From NCBI GenBank assembly GCA_013150915.1, contig JAADJE010000034.1:1-55258 (forward strand): 55,258 nt of DNA. Direction: 5' to 3'. Each line of letters opens with the position of its first letter. The stretch's first letter is position 1. A model generated the notes under the pieces. It searched no databases and had not been told where the DNA came from. It worked only from the letters and a program-made list of their open reading frames with translations. Of the stretch, positions 4,450-53,561 are shown piece by piece. The stretch is from Gammaproteobacteria bacterium (lineage in GTDB: Bacteria > Pseudomonadota > Gammaproteobacteria > BMS3Bbin11). Position numbers and translations under genes: made by a program.

Positions 4450-4609
4450 AAGGAAGCTGATCAACTCATGAACGCGTATCTTACGCCTAAAATATCCAGT
4501 TTTTCGTTGCAAGCTTTCACAGTCGCTTGTTATTACGTACGATTTACGCCTCAAACCTGAATATATTAGATCGCAATCTATCTCGCTCAGAATTTATCAG
4601 AGCTTCCCC
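4450..4609 (-). mobile_element. Miniature inverted-repeat element, ~160 bp, copy 1
   Basis: The ends are inverted copies: AGGAAGCTGATCAACTC on the left, and GGGGAAGCTCTGATAAATTC when the right end is read on the minus strand. Read on the minus strand, this element aligns over nearly its full length with the element at 53124-53283 read on the plus strand. Shared blocks include ACGTAATAAC, AAAAACTGGATATTTT and GTTCATGA. It also carries the start of a short plus-strand ORF beginning MNAYLTPKISSFS, like the ORF in the other copy. There is no transposase. It separates the tRNA terminator from ppiD. Confidence 0.65.
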
Positions 4610-52279: not shown

Positions 52280-53116
52280 CTATGTTTCATCCAATAGCCC
52301 CGTAATCGCACCCAGTACGCCTTCAAAACTGGGATAAGTCATGCGATATGCAGGTACTTTTCTTGCGAGCCCTACTGTTGCAGGGAAGCCGTCGCCTGCG
52401 AGGTTGCGTGCATTGACCAGGCATGACATCAAAGCCATGCCCGTTTGTGCGGCAGACAGTTTTTCCAGACTAAACTCGGTATCGGCCCTATAGTGGGGGA
52501 AAAAAATCATATCCACCTCAGGTTCAGTAGTTTTGTTACCGGCCCTGAGCAGGTGGGGAGGGACTAACATAGCGATGGGACCTGCTACGATTGATTCATC
52601 CCCCTTGTTGTCACCAAGCAAATCATCAATAATTTCACTGGCCCCATATTTGACATTTAACGGCCTGCCAAAACACATCACCTGACGTGACTCCAGCGGC
52701 AGATACACCAGTTCATCCGTCAGGTAGTCGAATCCATTGGATAATAGCCAGGCAGAAAGCGTTGTTTTACCATGACCGGATTGAGCCGGCATGATTATCC
52801 CCTTGCCCTTCCAACCCAGGCAGGCCGCATGAAACAAGAGCCCGCTAGAACATTTATCTGCCAGGTTATAAATACTGGTATTCATCAGAGAATTGGCCAA
52901 TGCCGCAAGTGAATCACCCTTATAAATTTCTTTTTCATCTCGGGTCAGTCGATAATCCCTGTCTCCGTCCTGAGATATTTCAAGGCAGGCATGCGGTGGA
53001 TTCATCCCTTGTTCAGGCACGCCTTTGAAAAGCATCTCGACCAGGTCACCTGTCTCGTTACTGTGGGTAACAATCTCAATACTGCTGTCGCCAAAGCTTA
53101 GTACACGCACTTGCAT
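52280..53116 (-). CDS. HPr-kinase-related P-loop protein (HprK_rel_A-like)
   Basis: The protein has 278 residues from the ATG at 53116, chosen because it overlaps the upstream stop as TGATG. The frame stays open to a TTG at 53188, but that part lies inside a miniature element. The P-loop reads AQSGHGKTTL with FHAACLGWKGKG before it and DYLTDELVYL after it, as in HPr kinase/phosphorylase-related proteins that lack the classic HPr kinase N-domain. A PqqD-like gene upstream is the normal partner of the HprK-related kinase A group. The phosphorylated target is unknown. Confidence 0.8.
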   Translation of the reverse strand: MQVRVLSFGDSSIEIVTHSNETGDLVEMLFKGVPEQGMNPPHACLEISQDGDRDYRLTRDEKEIYKGDSLAALANSLMNTSIYNLADKCSSGLLFHAACLGWKGKGIIMPAQSGHGKTTLSAWLLSNGFDYLTDELVYLPLESRQVMCFGRPLNVKYGASEIIDDLLGDNKGDESIVAGPIAMLVPPHLLRAGNKTTEPEVDMIFFPHYRADTEFSLEKLSAAQTGMALMSCLVNARNLAGDGFPATVGLARKVPAYRMTYPSFEGVLGAITGLLDET

Positions 53117-53265
53117 CAGGCCAGGGAGTCTCTGATCAATTCTGGACGAAGCAGGTTGCAGTCTAGAATCTTCGGGTTCGAGGCACAAATCGCACGTAAT
53201 AACTGGTCATTGCGAAGGGTTACAATGGAAAAACTGGATATTTTGGGCGTAGGGTACGAGTTCAT
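53116..53265 (-). CDS. 49-codon ORF inside a miniature element, coupled to both neighbours
   Basis: The ORF starts MNSYPTPKISSFS and ends RPELIRDSLA. Its ATG overlaps the stop of the PqqD-like gene (ATGA) and its TGA overlaps the start of the HPr-kinase-like gene (TGATG). All but the last bases lie in the miniature element 53124-53283. The related element at 4450-4609 also starts an ORF with MNAYLTPKISSFS. It may be translated only to pass ribosomes to the next gene. A peptide function, such as a substrate of the PqqD-like protein, is unproven. Confidence 0.4.
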   Translation of the reverse strand: MNSYPTPKISSFSIVTLRNDQLLRAICASNPKILDCNLLRPELIRDSLA

Positions 53266-53283
53266 GAATTGATCAGAGGTTCC
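53124..53283 (+). mobile_element. Miniature inverted-repeat element, ~160 bp, copy 4
   Basis: The left end GGGAGTCTCTGATCAATTC and the right end (minus strand) GGGAACCTCTGATCAATTC match at 17 of 19 positions, and a CCA flanks each side as a possible 3-bp target duplication. The interior aligns with copy 1 (4450-4609, opposite orientation) over its length. It sits precisely between the PqqD-like and HPr-kinase-like genes and encodes the last residues of the former. Confidence 0.7.
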
Positions 53284-53561
53284 CCCATGCTTACGGCATT
53301 ATTATCAGCAAGTTTTTTCAGTGTATCCAGAATATCCTGTCGAAGACTTTCTTCATTACTGGGGTAGGCATCCTGAATCATGTTTATAATGTCTTCTATC
53401 GATTGCTCACCGTTGCAAAGCTGCCAGATGACAGATGCCGATTTGTTTATATAGAGCGTCTTGCTGTTTGTGGGATTATATAACAACACCTCATCATCCA
53501 GTTCTTCCATATGACAGGATTCATTTCTGATTGGTTTGTCATCCAGTTTTATTTCAGCCAT
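53262..53561 (-). CDS. PqqD-like peptide-binding protein
   Basis: A 99-residue protein with the PqqD fold signature: a strand region (DDEVLLYNPTNSKTLYINKSA), then IWQLCNGEQSIEDIINMIQDAYP and a C-terminal helix. PqqD-type domains bind leader peptides of ribosomally made peptides, and PqqD relatives also occur beside HprK-related kinases with no known peptide. The last residues (EPLINS) are encoded by the miniature element, so the original C-terminus may have been slightly different. It is divergent from the ABC ATPase gene, with about 100 bases between. Confidence 0.8.
   Translation of the reverse strand: MAEIKLDDKPIRNESCHMEELDDEVLLYNPTNSKTLYINKSASVIWQLCNGEQSIEDIINMIQDAYPSNEESLRQDILDTLKKLADNNAVSMGEPLINS

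Follow-up and report, generated by a model that had tools for sequence, protein, structure and literature searches.

Comparison of a gammaproteobacterial draft genome with two of its relatives shows that a 159-bp IS5-type MITE was inserted 7 bp upstream of an ancestral TGATG that joins the stop codon of a PqqD-like gene to the start codon of an HprK-related kinase-like gene. The same comparison shows that the insertion removed the last two codons of the PqqD-like gene and moved its stop codon into the terminal repeat region of the element. An ATG at this new stop (ATGA) begins an open frame of the element that reaches the old PqqD stop. We propose, with a probability of roughly 60%, that this old insertion was tolerated because one of its frames happened by chance to relay ribosomes across it, a reading that we infer from the sequence and from the literature. 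With empty sites preserved in two relatives, the locus offers a clean before-and-after view of a mobile element landing within a pair of translationally coupled genes. Two questions become directly testable here, namely, by what means coupled operons withstand insertions and whether the persistence of an insertion depends on the open frames that transposons carry by chance. Throughout, "the window" denotes the whole stretch of DNA that was analyzed (55,258 nucleotides).

The PqqD-kinase junction with and without the element

The locus lies on the minus strand, where the PqqD-like gene, the ATGA overlap, a 49-codon ORF, the TGATG overlap, and the kinase-like gene follow one another (Table 1). 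At the junction, the window reads GTAAGCATGGG-element-CTGGCCTGATG. The original prediction had placed a miniature element exactly between the two genes with these two overlaps, and the coordinates, frames, and overlaps are as it described, with the boundaries of the element now refined from 53124-53283 to 53125-53283. Its proposal that the element provides the last residues and stop codon of the PqqD-like protein was also borne out: the element supplies the C-terminal residues EPLINS and the TGA that follows them, and the orthologues end in DAVTLA* or DAVTMP* instead. The ORF had likewise been attributed to the element. However, its end is not element derived: both the stop, which is the TGA of TGATG, and the two codons before it (CTG GCC) formed the end of the PqqD-like gene before the insertion.

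Table 1. Features of the PqqD-kinase locus and the second MITE copy, in window coordinates
Feature	Coordinates	Strand	Remarks
PqqD-like gene	53262..53561	(-)	99 aa; Pfam PqqD E=1.3e-12
IS5-type MITE copy	53125..53283	(-)	159 bp, GGAACC...GACTCC; ~14% off family consensus
Right target-site duplication CTGG (host sequence)	53121..53124	(-)	Empty sites and a CTGG/CTGG-flanked copy compared
Left flank ATGGG, imperfect duplication	53284..53288	(-)	Relative to CTGG: one substitution and one extra G
49-codon ORF (49 aa)	53116..53265	(-)	47 element codons, then CTG GCC TGA of the ancestral PqqD end
ATGA overlap, PqqD stop / ORF start	53262..53265	(-)	
TGATG overlap, ORF stop / kinase start	53114..53118	(-)	Ancestral PqqD-stop/kinase-start overlap; in G003 and G007 without element
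HprK-related kinase-like gene	52280..53116	(-)	278 aa, intact; P-loop AQSGHGKTT; no good ribosome-binding site
Second MITE copy in window	4452..4607	(+)	Frame stops after 30 codons

Two relatives carry the same gene pair as an empty site for the MITE. In G003, which belongs to the same genus, the PqqD-like gene ends in ...GTAACCCTCGCCTGATG (VTLA*), and in G007, from the same family, it ends in ...GTAACGATGCCCTGATG (VTMP*). In both genomes, the kinase ATG overlaps this stop codon and there is no element. The same junction and gene order were found in a Gammaproteobacteria MAG (L120) and an Arenicellales MAG (L121), which are probably the G003 and G007 genomes. In G005, the contig ends inside the kinase gene. 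Because the G003 and G007 junctions carry TGATG without the element, the link to the kinase predates the insertion. Judging from these junctions, TGATG is the ancestral state. The coupling to the kinase therefore does not stem from the element, and the idea that the link between the two genes was built by the insertion needs correction. The original prediction had itself named element-free orthologous overlaps as evidence that would count against this idea, and exactly such overlaps are present in G003 and G007.

Assignment of the upstream gene to PqqD is firm on the basis of its Pfam match. The kinase-like protein matches TIGR04352 (HprK-related kinase A) with E=5e-26, and its score of 91.4 bits falls below the curated cut-off of 200 bits, which places it outside the membership of that family. 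In HPr-rel-A systems, which pair a TIGR04352 kinase with a TIGR04353 PqqD protein, a PqqD-like gene likewise lies beside an HprK-related kinase gene. Unlike the curated members of these systems, however, both proteins in the window score under the TIGR04352 and TIGR04353 cut-offs. The window kinase is 87% identical to its orthologue in G003 and 77% identical to that in G007.

Identity of the inserted element

The element and its relative elsewhere in the window (53124-53283 versus 4457-4608) are 77% identical over 153 bp (E=4e-28), and there are 38 DNA matches to the element in its own 2.65-Mb draft genome, which is far beyond chance. Matches were found in all eight genomes of the family, where 103 full-length copies were placed. 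These copies have the hallmarks of MITEs in that they are short (~159 bp), repeated, and without a transposase gene, and they carry 18-bp terminal inverted repeats with GGAACCTCTGATYAATTC at both ends. Identical 4-bp flanks occur in 34 of the 103 copies, and 32 of those 34 conform to YTAR (TTAA 14, TTAG 7, CTAA 6, CTAG 5); the target-site duplication of the window copy is imperfect (ATGGG and CTGG). Many copies in G002 are 99% identical to the consensus, which indicates that the MITE family was recently active.

Another genome of the family contains an IS5-family transposon (L118, G005:C118) that shares the 18-bp end. Its transposase frame is open (DDE_Tnp_1, E=8e-31; DUF772, E=1e-21), and this apparently intact transposon is a candidate mobilizer of the MITE. 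Degenerate relatives of it were found in the genome to which the window belongs. The element is thus an IS5-type MITE, and the earlier description of it as a mobile repeat is upheld by its copy number, terminal repeats, YTAR duplications, and IS5-family end. It resembles IS5-family MITEs in its length of ~160 bp, its 4-bp YTAR duplications, its lack of a transposase, and its IS5-family terminal repeat, but it differs from the known examples in its internal sequence, which is specific to this family. It matched no named MITE family in the libraries searched.

The Chunjie MITE of Geobacter uraniireducens is said, in the title of a 2008 report in Genetics (cited in PMC5896051 and PMC10969869), to have inserted in an operon and left its structure undisturbed. 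As far as that title goes, Chunjie is likewise a MITE in an operon whose structure was kept, and it differs from the present case in that our insertion is at a stop/start overlap and a frame of the element links both genes. Precedents exist both for MITEs that carry open frames and for MITEs that lie in operons (PMC2229807, PMC5896051, PMC10969869). Those with open frames include Rickettsia palindromic elements, ERIC, YPAL, and Coxiella QMITE1/2 (PMC2229807, PMC5896051). Like the element in the window, these repeats are small and mobile and contribute codons or stops to host genes, but they mainly form in-frame fusions, whereas here a separate frame lies between two genes. Our literature search on MITEs, coupling, and operons found no case in which the frame of a MITE spans a coupled stop/start pair.

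The MITE consensus is imperfectly palindromic and is predicted to fold into a long hairpin (-46.9 kcal/mol), and RNases cut MITE transcripts such as those of Correia elements (PMC10969869, PMC2229807). Both points would favor an element that acts on the mRNA as a hairpin, through cleavage or stability, and not via translation. We consider this very unlikely because part of the palindrome is missing from the window copy (-37.1 kcal/mol), there is no terminator-like site in the region, and an Rfam search of the element returned no match.

Proposed translation across the insertion

The overlapping stop and start codons at this locus (ATGA and TGATG) have the geometry of translationally coupled pairs, in which 4-nt and 1-nt overlaps are typical (PMC6728339, PMC10666635). 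In the window, the new PqqD stop lies ~146 nt upstream of the kinase start. In native E. coli pairs, 80-100% of reinitiation is gone once the gap reaches 38 nt, and the final 15 nt of the upstream gene are enough to allow coupling (PMC10666635). That study also mentions previous observations of coupling across longer gaps, and therefore the need for overlaps or very short gaps is not beyond dispute.

We propose that a ribosome ending the PqqD-like gene would restart at the ATGA, translate the 49 codons, end at the old TGA, and begin again at the kinase ATG. In this way, termination-reinitiation coupling would persist in two hops rather than one, and the ancestral geometry would be restored. 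Had the left junction not gained its extra G, the PqqD-like gene would probably stop at nucleotide 11 of the element and not at the ATGA. The 49-residue peptide would be functionless, and the frame would matter, if at all, as a bridge over nucleotides that would otherwise break the coupling. Unlike in known coupled pairs, a transposon-derived frame would serve here as an intermediate hop.

No good Shine-Dalgarno sequence precedes the kinase gene in any of the three species, where the best candidates reach -2.9 to -3.0 kcal/mol and lie 11-12 nt from the start; this fits a dependence on coupling. Furthermore, the kinase gene is intact despite the divergence of the element by ~14%, which suggests long retention. 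Both observations argue against a reading in which the insertion ended the coupling, the open ORF is a product of chance without a relay role, and the kinase is translated weakly or independently, with the loss being tolerated by the operon. We regard that reading as possible but lean against it. In its favor, the frame is open by chance in ~84% of simulations at the divergence of the window copy, given the CAG form, and copies with broken frames persist in other operons. Likewise, the gene pair has been lost or reduced in sister genomes: it was not found in G002 and is a remnant in G001, and thus may be dispensable. Amino-acid changes lean the same way, with 15 on the kinase branch of the window's genome (G000) versus 8 on the G003 branch, although these are too few for significance. 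Relaxed selection on the kinase was considered and set aside because this difference is unconvincing and synonymous sites are saturated. In the G001 remnant (L040), a large deletion of the pair has fused the first 24 codons of the PqqD-like gene to the last part of the kinase gene.

The relay that we favor requires nothing of the peptide itself, whereas the original prediction envisaged a conserved start carried by the element or a small peptide acting with the PqqD domain. The 49-codon ORF has no match in Pfam or NCBIfam, and the peptide does not exist at the orthologous junctions. The consensus, which is also the commonest form of the element, has a TAG at codon 21, and the young G002 copies mostly stop there. 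When 60 aligned copies were compared by codon position, differences from the consensus were 0.134, 0.134, and 0.151 (p=0.45; copies <95% identity), and no purifying selection keeping the frame open was detected across copies. The equal rates and the TAG form rule out the ORF as a conserved peptide of the MITE, and the peptide has the look of neutral transposon sequence. Neither an element-borne start nor a peptide survives as a conserved feature, since most copies, recently active ones included, stop at codon 20; broken ORFs in other copies had been named in advance as contrary evidence, and the ORF is indeed cut short in most of them. The relative at 4450-4609 does open a frame with MNAYLTPKISSFS, as had been predicted, but that frame stops after 30 codons. 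This copy adjoins tRNA-like sequence and is not flanked by two codirectional genes.

A mild synonymous excess in the window copy (10 synonymous codon changes versus 5.8 expected, p ~0.045) could point to a peptide with a function of its own, such as serving as a substrate or partner for the PqqD-like protein. However, this value comes from one of 22 copies tested, and the excess is stronger in one G007 copy (p=0.014). Set against the absence of database matches, the peptide-free orthologous junctions, the even mutation of codon positions, and the common TAG form, it leaves a functional peptide highly improbable, and a role beside PqqD finds no support. What stands of the proposal that the frame keeps ribosomes moving is that the open through-frame could do so; the conserved start that was part of it does not stand.

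Other copies at operon junctions

Copies of the MITE also lie at atpB-atpE (L136, L009), atpA-atpG (L049), coaBC-dut (L057), aroQ-accB (L141, L153, L019), and an HlyD-like/ABC ATPase pair (L011), where some gene names (coaBC, atpB, HlyD-like) rest on reading of the translation only. The aroQ-accB copies represent one insertion common to three species (G002, G006, and G000, respectively). Each of these copies has an open frame, and one of them contains a 51-nt in-frame insert. The insertion shared at atpB-atpE is open in G002 (L136) and broken in G000 (L009) by a short tandem duplication. This broken copy, together with many frame-broken copies between codirectional genes, indicates that an open frame is not generally needed. 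The junctions aroQ-accB (three species), atpA-atpG, coaBC-dut, and the PqqD-kinase pair are candidates for a relay, and some of these genes are essential. At atpA-atpG in G007, the frame is open and the synonymous excess is the largest among the copies tested.

Within subfamily 1, the frame is open in 7/7 copies at tight sense junctions versus 17/53 others (p=0.0009), where the thresholds were picked after the data were seen and the analysis is exploratory. The association weakens to p=0.06 when every copy is counted and to p=0.057 after age matching, and it gives p=0.30 once copies with the TAG form are excluded. Many subfamily 2 copies persist in tight junctions with broken frames. A general rule of open junction copies fails matching by age or frame type, and we claim no such rule. 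It seems unlikely that MITEs of this family in tight codirectional junctions are preferentially retained when their through-frame is open and relays translation between the genes. Under such preferential retention, the orientation of the MITEs may have been filtered for the same reason.

For subfamily 1, upstream codirectional genes stop <=2 nt from the 5' end of the element in 14/28 cases, and genes facing its other end stop that near in 2/29 (p=0.0003; counted post hoc over the 103 full-length copies with simple ORF calling). The YTAR target contains TAA or TAG, which does not explain the orientation bias. Among copies of the diverged subfamily 2 that lie between codirectional genes, 21 are in the sense orientation and 7 are antisense (p=0.01).
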